Assembly: GCF_000017205.1 (NCBI RefSeq) | Contig: NC_009656.1 | Coordinates: forward strand, 1,926,001-1,990,000 | Length of the DNA stretch: 64,000 bases | Source: Pseudomonas paraeruginosa PA7 | GTDB taxonomy: Bacteria > Pseudomonadota > Gammaproteobacteria > Pseudomonadales > Pseudomonadaceae | Reading direction: 5' to 3' | In this document: piece after piece, positions 3,796-19,646 of the stretch | Position numbering within the stretch: the first letter of the stretch is position 1 | How the letters are laid out: each line of letters begins with the position of its first letter | Notes under the pieces: generated by a model | Databases searched by the model: none | What the model was told of the DNA's origin: nothing | Seen by the model: only the letters and a program-made list of their open reading frames with translations | Made by a program: the position numbers and the translations under genes

Positions 3796-5595
3796 ATGCC
3801 TGACAGTTTCAACTTCGCCTCGCCCCCCTTCGACCAGTTGCGCGCCCATGAGCGCGAAGCCCTCAAGCAGGCCCTCAGCGTGGGCTACTACGCGCCGGGA
3901 GAGGTCCTGCTCGAAGCGGGCTCGTCGGTCCCCGGGCTGTTCGTGCTGCTCAAGGGCGTGGTCGAGGAGCGCGGTGACGACGGACGGGTATTCGCCCAGT
4001 ACGCCGCGGAAGACCTGTTCGACGTCCGTGGGCTGTTCTCCGGCAGCAGCAAGCATCGCTACCTGGCGATCGAGGAAAGCATCGTCTACGAGTTGCCGGC
4101 CAGCTGTTTCCACCAGTTGTGCGGGGAGAACCCGGCTTTCGCCCGCTTCTTCCAGGCCGACCTGGCGGCCAAGCGCCAGCTGGCCCGGCGCGACGGACAG
4201 AACCTCGCCGAGTTCATCCTCACCCGGATCGCCCGCGAGCACCTGCTGCCGGCCCTGGAGGTGGAGGCCTCGCTGTCCCTTGGCGATGCCGCGCGCCTGC
4301 AGTTGAGCCATGGCGCCGATGCCCTGCTGGTGCGGCTGGAGAGGGACGGAACCGAGCTCGGCATCGTCACCCGCACCGACCTGATGAGCGCGCATTTCCG
4401 CGATGGTCGCAGCGAGCAGGAATCCATCGGGCCGCTGGCCCATGGCCCGCTGGCCAGCGTTGAGCTGGGTGACTTCCTGTTCGACGCGATGATCCTGATG
4501 ACCCGCCAGCGCATCGAACGGGTCGCGGTCACCGAGGACGGCCAGGTGATCGGGCTGCTGCACCTGACCCAGGTGCTCAGCCTGTTCTCCACCCATTCCC
4601 ACGTGCTCGCGCTGCGCATTGCCCGCGCCGACGACCTCGACGACCTGCGCCGCTGTGCGGAAACCCTGGATACCCTGATCGCCACCCTGGCCGGCAACGG
4701 CATTCGCCTGCGCTTCATCATGCAACTGGTCAGCGCGCTCAACGAGCAGTTGCTCGAGCGGCTTTTCGAGCTGCTTCTGCCACCGACCCTGCGCGGCCGC
4801 TGCTGCCTGCTGGTGATGGGCAGCGAAGGGCGCGGCGAGCAGTTGCTGAAGACCGACCAGGACAATGCCCTGATCCTGGCCGACGACCTGCCGCAGGAAC
4901 AGGCCCTGGCGATGATGCAGCGCTTCAGCGCGGCCTTGCTGGAGTTCGGTTATCCGCCCTGTCCCGGCGGAGTGATGGCCAGCCGGCCGGACTGGTGCAA
5001 GTCGCTCTCCGCCTGGCGTTCGGAACTGCGCACGACGTTGCTGGAGGGCAAGCCGGAGCAACTGTTGCGTCTGTCGATCCTGGCCGACGCCTGGCCGGTG
5101 GCCGGCAACCCGCAGCTTTTCGAACCCCTGCGCCGCGAACTGCGCGCTTTCGTCGACGGCGGCGAGCGCTGGTTGGCGGACGTCGCCGCGGCGGCCCTGC
5201 AATTCGACACGCCGCTGACATTCCTCGGCCAGTTGAAGGTCCAGGATGCCCGCCTCGATCTCAAGCGTGGCGGGATCTTTCCCATCGTCCATGGCATCCG
5301 GACCCTGGCCCTGCGTGAAGGCCTGGAGGTGCGCGGCAGCCTGGCGCGGATCGCCGCGCTGAAGGCGCGCAAGGTGCTTGAGTCGCGCCTGGCGGATGAC
5401 CTGGCCGAGTCCTTCGAACTGTTCCTGCAACTGCGCCTGACCCGCCAGTTGGCCGGCCAGCGCGACGGCCGCCAGCAGGGCCTGGATGTCAGCGGCATGA
5501 GCCGCCACGAGCGCGACATGCTGCGCTACGGCCTGCACGTGGTGAAGAAGTTCAAGCAGAGCCTGGCCCGCCAATTTCACCTGGAGACCCGATGA
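3796..5595 (+). CDS. cNMP-binding/CBS-pair/DUF294 nucleotidyltransferase-like protein
   Basis: A 599-residue cytoplasmic multidomain protein. Residues about 10-120 look like a cyclic-nucleotide-binding fold (PGEVLLEAGSSVPGLFVLLKG). Residues about 155-275 hold two CBS repeats, which commonly bind adenosine nucleotides. Residues about 290-440 form a DUF294 nucleotidyltransferase-like domain with the GSEGRGEQ and KTDQDNAL motifs of the GlnD-type superfamily, so the metal-binding acidic residues appear present. A helical DUF294 C-terminal domain ends the protein. Homologues are commonly encoded next to ActP-type symporters, which suggests control of transport, but the substrate modified is unknown. 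It overlaps the next gene by four bases (ATGA). Confidence 0.88.
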   Translation: MPDSFNFASPPFDQLRAHEREALKQALSVGYYAPGEVLLEAGSSVPGLFVLLKGVVEERGDDGRVFAQYAAEDLFDVRGLFSGSSKHRYLAIEESIVYELPASCFHQLCGENPAFARFFQADLAAKRQLARRDGQNLAEFILTRIAREHLLPALEVEASLSLGDAARLQLSHGADALLVRLERDGTELGIVTRTDLMSAHFRDGRSEQESIGPLAHGPLASVELGDFLFDAMILMTRQRIERVAVTEDGQVIGLLHLTQVLSLFSTHSHVLALRIARADDLDDLRRCAETLDTLIATLAGNGIRLRFIMQLVSALNEQLLERLFELLLPPTLRGRCCLLVMGSEGRGEQLLKTDQDNALILADDLPQEQALAMMQRFSAALLEFGYPPCPGGVMASRPDWCKSLSAWRSELRTTLLEGKPEQLLRLSILADAWPVAGNPQLFEPLRRELRAFVDGGERWLADVAAAALQFDTPLTFLGQLKVQDARLDLKRGGIFPIVHGIRTLALREGLEVRGSLARIAALKARKVLESRLADDLAESFELFLQLRLTRQLAGQRDGRQQGLDVSGMSRHERDMLRYGLHVVKKFKQSLARQFHLETR

Positions 5596-15273: not shown

Positions 15274-16038
15274 CTAGCCGGTTTTGTCGCGCGACTCGCG
15301 GCGCAGCTGGCGCGGAGTGACGCCGAACTCGCGGACCAGCGCCGCGGTGAAGGCGCTCTGCGAGGCGTAGCCGACCCGCGCGGCGATCTCGCCCACCGCC
15401 AGGCCGCTTTGCAGCAGCAGTTCATGGGCCTGGTGCAGGCGCCGGCTGCGCGCGTAGTCCATGGGCGTCTGCCCGGTTTCGGCGAGAAACAGGCTGTGGA
15501 AGCGCGCTACCGAGAGGCCGGCCAGCCGCGCCAGGTCGGCGACCTGCAGCGGGTAGGCGGCGTGGCGGTCGAGATAGGCGTCCAGGCTGGCCAGCGGCAG
15601 GCGTGGCCGCTGGCGCGGTGGTTGGCGCTCGCTGGCCAGGCTGGCGAGGAGCAGGCCGGCGCCCTGGTGGGCGATCACCGGATCGTTGATCGGCCCGCTG
15701 GCCAGCCAGCTCACCAGTTGGCCCTGGGCCGGCGTCAGCGGCAGCGCCTGCGGTCGTTCGAACAACCGCTGGCCGGCCTCTGCGTGCTCGCCGAGGCCGT
15801 GCAACAGGCTGCCGTCGCAGGGCAGGTCGAGGACCAGGCAATGGCTGCCGTCGGGGCTGGAACAGGCGTGCCGGGCCGCCGCCGGGACCACCGCGAAGGT
15901 CTGCCGCAGAACGCGGCTGCCGCGGCCGTCGACCTCGAACTCGAGGCAGCCGCTGAGACCCATGACCAACTGGGCATGGTCATGGCTATGGACGATCTGG
16001 TCGTGGTTGTAGTGGCGCAGGGAAAGGATCGAACCCAT
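15274..16038 (-). CDS. AraC-family transcriptional regulator with cupin sensor
   Basis: A 254-residue regulator. The N-terminal half is a cupin-like effector domain (HDHAQLVMGLSGCLEFEVDG near residue 18, with the cupin histidines). The C-terminal 100 residues hold the double helix-turn-helix: LADLARLAGLSVARFHSLFLAETGQ and IAARVGYASQSAFTAALVREFGVTPRQLR, the second being the AraC signature. It lies upstream of csaA and the EamA permease on the same strand with a 64-base gap, so these are its likely targets. Ligand is unknown. It is divergent from plcP. Confidence 0.88.
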   Translation of the reverse strand: MGSILSLRHYNHDQIVHSHDHAQLVMGLSGCLEFEVDGRGSRVLRQTFAVVPAAARHACSSPDGSHCLVLDLPCDGSLLHGLGEHAEAGQRLFERPQALPLTPAQGQLVSWLASGPINDPVIAHQGAGLLLASLASERQPPRQRPRLPLASLDAYLDRHAAYPLQVADLARLAGLSVARFHSLFLAETGQTPMDYARSRRLHQAHELLLQSGLAVGEIAARVGYASQSAFTAALVREFGVTPRQLRRESRDKTG

Positions 16039-16101
16039 GGCGAAGCTCCCGGAGGCAGGCGATCAGTCTAACCGCTGGCGCCGCGCACAGACAGCCGTGG
16101 C

Positions 16102-16141
16102 CTGTCACGCAACGGTCGCGGGGTTGTCACAGTCGCTTCAC
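16102..16141 (+). promoter_or_regulatory. Tandem PHO box upstream of plcP-agt1
   Basis: Four 7-base units start at 16102, 16113, 16124 and 16135, an exact 11-base period: CTGTCAC, CGGTCGC, TTGTCAC and GCTTCAC, separated by four-base spacers. The PhoB half-site is CTGTCAT with 4-base spacers, and the units match it at 6, 4, 5 and 3 of 7 positions. The array ends 43 bases before the plcP start. The period and the genes behind it make a PhoB site likely. Confidence 0.72.
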
Positions 16142-16184
16142 CGGCTGCGGCCAAGATCGGAAAAACACCGTCGGAGATCCGCCG

Positions 16185-16997
16185 ATGAGCACCGCGCAAC
16201 GTTTCACCTCGAACCGCAAGCAGCGGGTCCGGACCTTGTGGATATCCGACGTGCACCTGGGAACGCGGGACTGCCAGGCCGAGCACCTGGCGGGGTTCCT
16301 CAAGCGCTACCACGCCGACCGCATCTACCTGGTGGGCGACATCATCGACGGCTGGAAGCTGCGTGGCGGCATCTACTGGCCGCAGGCCCATACCAACGTG
16401 ATCCGCCGCCTGCTCACCCTGAGCAAGCGCGGCACCGAGGTGATCTACGTCACCGGCAACCACGACGAATTCCTGCGCCGCTACTCGAGCCTGGTGCTCG
16501 GCAACATCCGCCTGGTCGACGAGGCCGTGCACAGCACCGCCGACGGCCGCAAGCTGCTGGTGATCCATGGCGACCAGTTCGACGTGATCACCCGCTATCA
16601 CCGCTGGCTGGCGTTCCTCGGCGACTCCGCCTACGAGTTCACCCTGTTGCTCAACCGCTGGCTGAACCACTGGCGGCGGCGCTGGGGCTACGGCTACTGG
16701 TCGCTGTCGGCCTACCTCAAGCACAAGGTCAAGACCGCGGTGAACTTCATCGGCGACTTCGAGGAGGCCATCGCCCACGAATGCCAGAAACGCGGGCTCG
16801 ACGGAGTGGTCTGCGGGCATATCCACCATGCCGAGATCCGCCGCATCGATGGTATCGACTACCTCAACTGCGGCGATTGGGTGGAGTCCTGCACGGCACT
16901 GATCGAGCACTGGGACGGCAGCATCCAGCTCTACCGCCTGGCCGAGGAGCAGGCGCGGTTGGCGGAGCGCGCCGCGGCCGTCGAGCCGGCGGCATGA
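16185..16997 (+). CDS. plcP: PlcP-type metallophosphoesterase (phospholipase C for lipid remodelling)
   Basis: A 270-residue calcineurin-like phosphoesterase related to LpxH. Metal-ligand motifs are all present: SDVHLGTRD near residue 21, VGDIIDGW near 50, GNHDEFLRR near 93, VIHGDQFD near 123 and GHIHHAE near 210. In PlcP enzymes this domain removes the phospho-headgroup from membrane phospholipids during phosphate starvation, leaving diacylglycerol. The next gene, overlapping by ATGA, is the glycosyltransferase that uses it. From memory these are PA3219 (plcP) and PA3218 (agt1), reported to make phosphorus-free glycolipids in P. aeruginosa. The upstream PHO-box array agrees. Confidence 0.87.
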   Translation: MSTAQRFTSNRKQRVRTLWISDVHLGTRDCQAEHLAGFLKRYHADRIYLVGDIIDGWKLRGGIYWPQAHTNVIRRLLTLSKRGTEVIYVTGNHDEFLRRYSSLVLGNIRLVDEAVHSTADGRKLLVIHGDQFDVITRYHRWLAFLGDSAYEFTLLLNRWLNHWRRRWGYGYWSLSAYLKHKVKTAVNFIGDFEEAIAHECQKRGLDGVVCGHIHHAEIRRIDGIDYLNCGDWVESCTALIEHWDGSIQLYRLAEEQARLAERAAAVEPAA

Positions 16998-18049
16998 GGT
17001 TGCTGATCGTCAGCGACGCCTGGTTGCCGCAAGTCAACGGAGTCGTCACCAGCCTGCTGGCGCTGCAACGTGAGCTGGAGGGGCTGGGCCACCAGGTGCG
17101 CGTGCTCTCGCCCGACGACTTCCGTTGCCTGCCCTGTCCCGGCTATCCGGAAATCCCCCTGGCCTGGAACCTCTGGCGGCTCGCTGCCCTGATCGAGGCC
17201 TTCGCCCCGGACGCCGTGCACCTGGCCACCGAGGGCCCGCTCGGCTGGGCTGCCCGGCGCTGGCTGGGCAGGCGCGGCATGGGCTTCACCACGGCGATCC
17301 ACACGCGCTTTCCCGAATACGTGCGCGACCGCATTCCCTGGCTGCCACTGTCCTGGGGCTACGCTTTCCTGCGCACCTTCCACCGGCCCAGCGAGGCGGT
17401 ACTGGTGAGCACCCCGCGCCTGCGCGAGGAATTCGCCAGTTGGCGCTTCCAGCGCCTGCGGCTGTGGCGCAAGGGGGTCGACACCGGGCTGTTCCGGCCC
17501 GCCGAGTCGCCGGCTGAGGATCGGCGGGAGCCGGTGTTCCTGTATGCCGGGCGGCTGGCGCCGGAAAAGAACCTGGAGGCGTTCCTCGACCTCGAACTGC
17601 CGGGCGAGCAGTGGCTGGTGGGTGACGGCCCGCAACGGGCGGCGCTGGAGCGGCGCTATCCGCGGGCGCGCTTCCTCGGCTATCGGCATGGCGAGGCGCT
17701 GGCCGATGCCTACCGGACGGCCTCGGTGTTGGTGTTCCCGTCGCGCACCGATACCTACGGCCTGGTGATGCTCGAAGCCCTGGCCTGTGGCGTGCCGGTG
17801 GCGGCCTTCGCCGTACCGGGCCCGCTCGACGTGCTGCGCCAGGGCGTGACCGGCGTCATGCACGAGGACCTCGGCGAAGCCTGCCGCCAGGCCCTGGCGC
17901 TGGACCGCGAGGCTTGCGCGCGCTGGGCGCGGGAGCAATCCTGGCGGGCCTCGGCGGAGGAGTTCCTGGCATTGCAGGCGTGCTGCCCGCGGGCGGCCTC
18001 GGAGTGGACGCAGGAGTTGCCGGCGGCGCTCGACCGGCTCAGAGGATGA
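16994..18049 (+). CDS. agt1: Agt1-type diacylglycerol glycosyltransferase (GT4)
   Basis: A 351-residue GT-B fold glycosyltransferase, family GT4. The N-terminal acceptor half begins LIVSDAWLPQVNGVVTSL (typical of SqdX/MgdA-like lipid glycosyltransferases) and contains TAIHTRFPEYV. The C-terminal half binds the sugar nucleotide: LYAGRLAPEKNLEAFL near 185 and the E-x7-E type segment FPSRTDTYGLVMLEALACGVPV near 253. It glycosylates diacylglycerol produced by PlcP to give surrogate glycolipids under phosphate stress. Its ATG overlaps the plcP stop. Its last 11 bases overlap the end of the convergent cyaB gene. Confidence 0.87.
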   Translation: MRLLIVSDAWLPQVNGVVTSLLALQRELEGLGHQVRVLSPDDFRCLPCPGYPEIPLAWNLWRLAALIEAFAPDAVHLATEGPLGWAARRWLGRRGMGFTTAIHTRFPEYVRDRIPWLPLSWGYAFLRTFHRPSEAVLVSTPRLREEFASWRFQRLRLWRKGVDTGLFRPAESPAEDRREPVFLYAGRLAPEKNLEAFLDLELPGEQWLVGDGPQRAALERRYPRARFLGYRHGEALADAYRTASVLVFPSRTDTYGLVMLEALACGVPVAAFAVPGPLDVLRQGVTGVMHEDLGEACRQALALDREACARWAREQSWRASAEEFLALQACCPRAASEWTQELPAALDRLRG

Positions 18050-19430
18050 CCTTGTCGCGCAGGCGCTCGGCGGCCTGCTGCAGGGCCTGGATGACCCGTT
18101 CCTTGTCGTAGTTCTGGATGTTGTTGGTATCCAGGTACATGGAGAAGCCTGGCAGTTCGTGCTCGACGTAGCTGGGCGCGGCGCCGAGGTCGCGGCGCGA
18201 GTCCACCACCTGGTAGATCTGCACCGGCCGGCTGAAGCCCTTGACCGTGATCTGGCCCTTGTCGCGGCACATGATCACGTCCTTGACCAGCGAGTAGGTC
18301 TCGTGGGAAATGAGGATCTCGCCGGCTTCCGAGGCGCTTTCCAGGCGGCTGGCGAGGTTCACCTCGCGACCGATGATGGTGTAGTCCATGCGCGTGTCGG
18401 CGCCGAAGTTGCCCACCGTGCAATAGCCGGTGTTGATGCCCATGCGGATTTCCAGCGGCTTGGTGATGCCCTGGGCCCGCCACTGCTGGCGCAGCACCTT
18501 CATGTGCTTGCGCATGGCGATGCCCATCGATACCGCCGCCACGGCGTCCTTCTTCGCGCCCTGGGTACTGGGGTCGCCGAAGAACACCATGACGCAGTCG
18601 CCGACGAACTTATCAATGGTGCCGCCGTACTTGAGGGCGATCTTCGACATCTCGTTGAGGTAGTTGTTGAGCAGGTCGGTCAGCGCCTCGGCCTCCAGCT
18701 CCTCGGAGAGTTCGGTGAAGCCGCGGATATCGGAGAAGAACACGGTGAGCTTCTTGCGCTGGGTTTCCAGGCGCACGCTCTTCTTGCCGCTGAAGATCAT
18801 CTCCCAGACCTGCGGCGACAGGTACTTGGCCAGGTTGCGCGCGAGCCGCGCGGCCTTTTCCTGCTCGCGGGCGATCTCCTGGCGCACCTGGGCCAGGCGC
18901 AGGCCCTGCTGGTGGCCGAAGAAGGCGGTGATGCAGATGTACAGGCCGCAGAACAGGATGCTCACCGCCGCCACTTCCACCGGCGTGGTGCCGAGCAGCG
19001 GCGGCGCGGCGAGGACGGTGACCAGCAGGGCGCTGCTGGCCGATACCAGCAGGGCCATGCCGAGCAGGCGCAGGCCGCCGATGACCAGCGCGGTGAAGCT
19101 GAGCACCAGCAGGAACATCAGGCTGGGGACCACCGAGAAGCCGAGCAGGGCCATGCCCAGGCCGCAGTGCGCGGCGTCGACCGCGAGCAGGACGCGGGTC
19201 ACCTTGCGCGGATCGTGCTGGCGGAAGCGCTGGCCGAGATGGTAGGCCAGGTGCGGGTAGAGCAGGGCGTACGGCACCATCCAGAGGATGCCGTAGCTGA
19301 AATACTGGGTATAGGTTCCCGCCGCGATGCTGGCGCCACACGCGATATAAGCCAGCACGCGCGAATAGTATTCGCGCATGGATGCGACGGACCGGCTCGT
19401 CGGCGAGCGGTCGGGGAGGGTGGGCTTCAT
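18039..19430 (-). CDS. cyaB: Membrane class III adenylate cyclase
   Basis: A 463-residue class III adenylate cyclase that makes cAMP, the signal for Vfr. Residues about 25-200 form the MASE2 membrane sensor, with six helices beginning YSRVLAYIACGASIAAGTY. A short helical linker with QEIAREQEKAARLARNLAKY follows. The catalytic domain starts at about 235 with VFFSDIRGFTELSEE, carrying the two metal Asp residues (one in SDIRGF, one in GDCVMVFFG), then MGINTGYCTVGNFGADTRMDYT. Length matches P. aeruginosa CyaB as I recall it. The 3' end overlaps the convergent agt1 by 11 bases. Confidence 0.95.
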   Translation of the reverse strand: MKPTLPDRSPTSRSVASMREYYSRVLAYIACGASIAAGTYTQYFSYGILWMVPYALLYPHLAYHLGQRFRQHDPRKVTRVLLAVDAAHCGLGMALLGFSVVPSLMFLLVLSFTALVIGGLRLLGMALLVSASSALLVTVLAAPPLLGTTPVEVAAVSILFCGLYICITAFFGHQQGLRLAQVRQEIAREQEKAARLARNLAKYLSPQVWEMIFSGKKSVRLETQRKKLTVFFSDIRGFTELSEELEAEALTDLLNNYLNEMSKIALKYGGTIDKFVGDCVMVFFGDPSTQGAKKDAVAAVSMGIAMRKHMKVLRQQWRAQGITKPLEIRMGINTGYCTVGNFGADTRMDYTIIGREVNLASRLESASEAGEILISHETYSLVKDVIMCRDKGQITVKGFSRPVQIYQVVDSRRDLGAAPSYVEHELPGFSMYLDTNNIQNYDKERVIQALQQAAERLRDKVIL

Positions 19431-19646
19431 GCGCTGGAGAGGATCCCTGTGTATTTTCGTCCCGGCTCTGCCTCGTGAGCGCTCCGCCGGGGAATGGCGG
19501 CTGGCCAGGTTGCTGGCGGAATCTTAACCAAGCGTTTGCGTGGCGGCCAGTGACAGCTGATCGATTGTTCAGGGAATGCACGTGCGCCCGGGACCGACGG
19601 TCGTGCCGGGAGGGCGACCGGCCAGGGGGGCCGGCCGCGCGGGGCG

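Follow-up and report, generated by a model that had tools for sequence, protein, structure and literature searches.

PhoB recognizes a head-to-tail motif with GTCA(C/T) half-sites (PMC8041468), and the pho box has been described with A/T-rich spacers of 4 bases (PMC4971064). In E. coli the box usually substitutes for the -35 region, and in P. aeruginosa promoters that depend on another sigma factor it lies further upstream (PMC4971064); structural models favour a strict spacing between the pho box and the core promoter (PMC10294691). The closest described system is the plcP-agt1 operon itself. In fact, its regulation by PhoB, with TctD acting in the opposite direction, has already been published for P. 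aeruginosa PA14: Table 1 of that study lists PA14_22600 (grtA, the agt1 gene) with a log2 change of -2.07 upon phoB deletion and +1.68 in tctD::Tn, opposite to the phoB effect; the operon promoter has a PhoB ChIP-seq log2 value of 8.47 (the second highest in the table, with PhoB overexpressed), and both PhoB and TctD motifs are marked for it (PMC4513871). The same table of TctD antagonism includes PA2022 (ugd) and PA4350-PA4351 (PMC4513871). Six of the seven PhoB-activated, TctD-repressed promoters carry a quadripartite box, i.e. a PhoB box plus 22 nt including a TctD motif; within the co-regulated set PA3910 is the named exception and PA0696 has a weak PhoB motif only (PMC4513871), and by elimination we infer that plcP-agt1 is one of the six. 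A Pho box (consensus CTGTCATNNNNCTGTCAT) has been predicted upstream of PA3219-PA3218 in the PAO1, PA14 and PA7 clades, the PA3219 protein is 4.6-fold up at low phosphate, and loss of the glycolipid-replacement pathway leads to poor survival of P. aeruginosa in polymyxin B (PMC8528852). In P. putida, PlcP, OlsAB and TuaD are absent from a phoBR mutant during phosphate-depleted growth (PMC5082522). The published binding and mutant data come from PA14, PAO1 and P. putida and not from the strain studied here, and in the accessible parts of the literature examined we found no footprint or start-site mapping of the plcP promoter.

The window analysed here is a stretch of 64,000 nucleotides from Pseudomonas paraeruginosa PA7, in which four 7-base units follow each other in exact 11-base steps (16102-16141) in front of plcP-agt1. 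They lie in the 146-base gap that separates plcP (16185-16997, plus strand; ATG at 16185) from the divergent gene for an AraC-type regulator (15274-16038, minus strand; PF12833), a neighbour outside the array with its start codon ending at 16038. Judging by its neighbourhood, we take plcP to be the PA3219 orthologue. PlcP is a calcineurin-type phosphoesterase (PF00149, PF12850); agt1 (grtA; 16994-18049, plus strand), whose first 4 bases overlap the end of plcP, encodes a family 4 glycosyltransferase according to Pfam. The function of PlcP as a phospholipase C and that of Agt1 follow PMC8528852. Reading towards plcP, the units are CTGTCAC (unit 1, 16102-16108), CGGTCGC (unit 2, 16113-16119), TTGTCAC (unit 3, 16124-16130) and GCTTCAC (unit 4, 16135-16141), all on the plus strand and all predicted half-sites, with units 1 and 3 strong PhoB half-sites, unit 2 a weak one, and unit 4, the promoter-proximal one, weak and of the type nnTTMAY. 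The first-pass annotation had these letters and coordinates exactly right. The array ends 43 bases before the plcP start, with a probable ribosome-binding site GGAG at 16173-16176 on the plus strand, and its exact 40-mer occurs only once in the genome (6,588,339 bases). The spacers GCAA, GGGG and AGTC are not A/T-rich, unlike those of the textbook pho box; since several further Pho-type sites in this genome have G+C-rich spacers too, we do not treat A/T-rich spacers as defining. The gap also contains an inverted repeat, GACAG (16090-16094) and CTGTC (16102-16106) separated by 7 bases, which overlaps unit 1 and may be an operator of the AraC-type regulator, and a likely -10 element of the AraC-type gene, TAGACT (16065-16070, minus strand), whose AGTCTA stretch recurs in many relatives.

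We scored the units with a half-site matrix built from 17 Pho-type dimers of this genome, with plcP left out. Units 1 and 3 reach 10.9 and 10.5 bits against -0.2 and 2.3 for units 2 and 4, in line with the earlier remark that the second and fourth units are the weaker ones. The four-unit sum of 23.4 ranks first among 127,922 window positions (both strands, 64 kb; next best 17.4), none of 5000 dinucleotide-shuffled versions of the gap attains it, and the best four-unit sums in the gap at periods of 8-10 and 12-15 are all negative. A second matrix, covering 40 bases and derived from 72 plcP loci with the window and six near relatives excluded, again places the array site first, with 37.7 bits compared to -2.8 for the runner-up. 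Given these shuffles, the first rank in the window and the conservation described below, we consider a chance resemblance to PhoB sites next to inconceivable. A pattern derived from the array also matched with 0 mismatches at plcP alone; its design had been guided by plcP and the related loci, so that this hit carries no weight of its own and was set aside. When single dimers including the spacer are scored, units 1-2 come third in the window and units 3-4 tenth, the two matches above units 1-2 (at 5204 and 43434) both lying within open reading frames. The three plcP unit pairs score 11.7, 3.8 and 7.9 bits, all less than the 18.4 bits of the lowest-scoring training dimer. The strength of the array therefore comes from the number of units and from no single pair. 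The check with a weight matrix that the first-pass annotation had proposed, here made with Pho dimers of this genome, thus comes out in favour of the site as a four-unit array, with single pairs under the training range. As unit 2 scores about zero, unit 4 is low and no pair reaches the training range, PhoB may not occupy the array in full.

Exactly 10 bases after unit 4 lies a predicted -10 element, CAAGAT (16152-16157, plus strand), whose form xAxxxT is conserved: it is found at this distance in 79 of 79 aligned plcP loci (38 of 38 nonredundant ones), while at 8, 9, 11, 12 and 13 bases past unit 4 it occurs in 0, 0, 22, 2 and 0 of the 79. From the -10 spacing, transcription is predicted to start at A16164 (plus strand); the A residues at array offsets 62 and 63 are invariant among the 38 nonredundant loci, and the one at offset 61 nearly so. 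With this start, the centres of units 1 to 4 would be at about -59, -48, -37 and -26. A search for a sigma-70 type -35/-10 pair in 15500-19500 found none. The layout recurs within the genome. At 8 of 10 other Pho-type promoters (phoA, pstS, pstC, phnC, oprO, oprP, olsBA and glpQ) an xAxxxT hexamer stands 10 bases past the last unit; the phoB and ugd promoters have none at that distance. Thus the plcP promoter has the CTGTCAY-type direct repeats at 11-base steps as well as the fixed 10-base distance from the last repeat to the -10 element, with no -35 element needed, that characterize the PhoB class of tandem pho boxes. For the comparison, oprO and oprP were identified by PF07396, ugd by TIGR03026 and glpQ by PF03009, the choice among paralogues being presumptive and made by position; phoA, pstS, pstC, phoB, phnC and olsBA carry names that we assume from N-termini or context, Pfam scans of six short N-terminal pieces having named one, a response regulator. 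We further take olsBA to be PA4350-PA4351. PA3368 was sought and not located in this genome, and PA3910 was located (locus L159).

Four units are also present at pstS of this genome and upstream of ugd (locus L150), and a unit 4 of the nnTTMAY kind is found in pstS and phnC as well. A survey of Ugd in 36 genomes, 32 of which gave a match, showed ugd arrays with 19-25 of 28 matching positions in 10 loci with 69-75% identical Ugd (22 in the copy of this genome) and 13-16 of 28 in 20 loci with 49-56% Ugd identity. Six of the 10 ugd loci of close relatives share the non-standard TGCAAT at 10 bases.

To assess conservation we compared 80 other plcP loci, the best 80 of at least 589 candidates and therefore a sample biased to close relatives of PlcP. 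In a search of 25 genomes of the genus, the present one included and P. aeruginosa proper (PAO1, PA14) not among them, the best non-self identity was 76%. Units 1 and 3 anchored the alignment, and part of their conservation therefore results from this choice, whereas no use was made of units 2 and 4, the hexamer, the AAA or the distance to the ATG. The array aligned at the window and at 78 of the 80 other loci (79 of 81), with 10-14 of 14 matches for units 1 and 3 jointly and with 79-85 bases from the start of unit 1 to the ATG. The 11-base period, which the first-pass annotation had suggested following across Pseudomonas, is part of the register in which these 78 loci align. Pairs of CTGTCAY that match in 12 or more of 14 positions are found with a spacing of 11 in 62% and of 22 in 85% of 40 nonredundant upstream regions, the window among them, compared to 0.00 (rounded) at either spacing in shuffled upstream regions; every other spacing from 8 to 44 is found in 10% or less. 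The non-aligning loci, L071 (P. guariconensis) and L075 (P. faucium), which were left out of the column and hexamer-spacing counts, have by eye three units about 60 to 70 bases before plcP (TCGTCAC or CCGTCAC, CTGCCAC, CTGTCAT), with CAGGCT or CAGTCT 10 bases after the last.

The low half-site scores of units 2 and 4 might suggest that PhoB binds the two strong units only and that the weak ones have no function. We consider this very unlikely, for both weak units keep conserved positions. Unit 2 matches on average at 4.85 of 7 positions against 1.0-2.9 with the register shifted by 3 to 5 bases, and unit 4 at 3.91 against 1.5-2.8. Both are off consensus in most of the 79 aligned loci, and yet G3 of unit 2 is retained in 73 and its C5 in 69 of them, and unit 4 has T4 and A6 in every locus (79 of 79), with T3 in 74 and the form nnTT[A/C]A[C/T] in 74. 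The strong units hold G3, T4 and A6 (unit 1) and T4, C5 and A6 (unit 3) in all 79 loci, and G3 of unit 3, like its whole GTCA, in 78. Moreover, units 1 and 3 are separated by 22 bases and not by 11.

The position of the array between two divergent genes, together with the GACAG/CTGTC repeat, would also fit an operator that serves the AraC-type gene and not plcP. Against this, the units point to plcP and stand at a fixed distance from its -10 element, and plcP has an AraC match next to it in 67 of 80 loci only: the 13 that lack one all align with the array. We therefore hold this reading to be most improbable. An agt1 match within 1.5 kb downstream was found in 27 of 80 loci; among the 53 without (absence of either gene means no tblastn match at 1e-6 in 1.5 kb of flank, and L111, one of the 53, has only 664 bases downstream), 51 align with the array, the other two being L071 and L075. 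As it is kept in loci that lack AraC or an adjacent agt1, the array travels with plcP.

The alternative that has to be weighed most seriously is the composite box of PMC4513871, in which PhoB would occupy units 1-2 only and TctD units 3-4, so that TctD blocks the polymerase and PhoB activates from upstream. The operon belongs to the PhoB-activated, TctD-repressed set, the 18 + 22 = 40 bases of the quadripartite box equal the span of the array, units 1-2 are the top plcP pair by the PhoB matrix, and unit 4 has a T at position 3, as do the CTTTCRN repeats upstream of tctD. On the other hand, at 10 bases from the -10 element units 3-4 hold the place that PhoB has in promoters with two units, for example phoA, unit 3 reads GTCA in 78 of 79 loci, and the same type of unit 4 is present in pstS and phnC, which are not listed in Table 1 of PMC4513871. 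We also derived candidate TctD sites. Two CTTTCRN-type repeats 11 bases apart were found upstream of tctD in 30 of 31 sequences (our own and 29 of 30 fetched) with 12-13 of 14 matches, L188 reaching only 9 of 14. Such direct repeats with an 11-base step, GAAAGCCTGGC and GAAAGCTTGGC, stand between tctD and opdH in L126 (2160-2215), have counterparts upstream of tctD in 29 of 30 loci of relatives, and are probably a TctD site.

A dimer matrix from 21 distinct tctD-upstream dimers, itself inferred and possibly not descriptive of TctD sites at the promoters considered here, is negative for every plcP pair (-5.7, -7.0 and -4.7 bits). The same matrix is negative for oprO, oprP, ugd, olsBA and glpQ and gives 0.6 to 13.2 for pstS and phnC, which are absent from Table 1 of PMC4513871; it therefore does not single out TctD-regulated promoters and does not place TctD. 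T3 of unit 4 was likewise tried as a TctD signature and dropped, as it is present in pstS and phnC and missing from unit 4 of ugd, oprO, olsBA and glpQ. A TctD orthologue with at least 81% identity was found in 46 of 48 genomes searched (covering 48 of the 80 loci). In the other two, for which genome completeness is not given, there was no match at 1e-50 (L038) or only a 46% match (L058). Both align with the four-unit array, which argues against the composite box and suggests, in a sample of two, that the array is independent of TctD. All in all, we regard the composite box as possible and as the less probable reading.

What we favour, and consider likely, is a PhoB-activated promoter with two head-to-tail dimers, the downstream one replacing the -35 element, at which TctD counteracts PhoB. 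Upon phosphate starvation, two dimers of phosphorylated PhoB would bind the four 11-base repeats, one on units 1-2 and one on units 3-4; the latter would substitute for the -35 element and help RNA polymerase to start at about A16164 from CAAGAT, and plcP and agt1 would be transcribed, so that glycolipid could take the place of phospholipid. When tricarboxylates are plentiful, TctD would oppose PhoB at the same promoter, probably on the polymerase-proximal pair. A bolder proposal is that the conserved asymmetry (strong units 1 and 3; unit 4 as nnTTMAY) is a composite code for PhoB as activator and TctD as anti-activator that gates lipid replacement by phosphate and tricarboxylate across Pseudomonas. 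This we put forward as a speculation that is rather unlikely to hold; if true, the three-unit species would be natural variants with a changed TctD arm and retained PhoB control, and the gated genes would be plcP-agt1, ugd (glucuronate donor) and olsBA (ornithine lipid).

Taken together, the array is real and makes up a strongly conserved PhoB promoter, for which binding by PhoB and a predicted Pho box have been reported before. The first-pass annotation had read tandem PhoB binding and phosphate control of plcP-agt1 from the geometry of the repeats; both are supported by sequence, conservation and published data, the latter being the PA14 binding and phoB values given above and the absence of PlcP from the P. 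putida phoBR mutant (PMC4513871, PMC5082522). The ChIP-seq signal it had suggested looking for is published for the PA14 operon promoter (PMC4513871), and neither a lack of PhoB binding nor indifference of plcP to loss of phoB was found for PA14 and P. putida in the accessible parts of these papers. Its proposal of a graded response that needs high PhoB levels may hold but found no support here: in most relatives units 2 and 4 deviate from the consensus, with a specific form kept in unit 4, a weak unit 4 of this kind is shared by pstS and phnC, and the PhoB ChIP value of the operon is the second highest in the table, although PhoB was overexpressed (PMC4513871). It had also overlooked that tctD acts in the opposite direction, that a PhoB/TctD motif is listed for the operon and that a -10-like hexamer stands 10 bases downstream. 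What is added here is the exact anatomy, with the predicted start and the constant distance to the -10 element, the conservation, down to the form in which the weak units are kept, and the three-unit variants. The anatomy is thereby fixed for the promoter that switches on glycolipid replacement, a pathway tied to polymyxin B survival (PMC8528852), and this promoter is linked to a second regulator, TctD, which is unmentioned in the accessible parts of the lipid papers. The lipid genes plcP-agt1, ugd and olsBA have in common four-unit arrays and published TctD antagonism. As we found no connection of TctD with ornithine lipid and PhoB, or with Pseudomonas glycolipid, in the open-licence PMC literature, control of lipid remodelling by carbon source is a testable idea.

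Compared with the described systems, the Pho box of PMC8528852 lies in the same promoter as our array, with a two-unit consensus given there and four units found here, and in its accessible part that paper makes no link to TctD. The quadripartite box of PMC4513871, reported for the same operon in its Table 1, shares the span of the array and differs in its downstream half, which is assigned to TctD there and stands here at the position that PhoB has in other promoters. Tandem pho boxes comparable to the plcP layout are known from the E. coli pstS promoter. The pstS promoter of this genome is likewise built as that of plcP, with four 11-base units of which the last ends 10 bases before a -10-like hexamer, whereas units 2 and 4 of plcP are further off consensus. 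The unit pairs of plcP reach 3.8-11.7 bits and those of pstS 9.0-23.2 bits, two of the pstS pairs having been in the training set.
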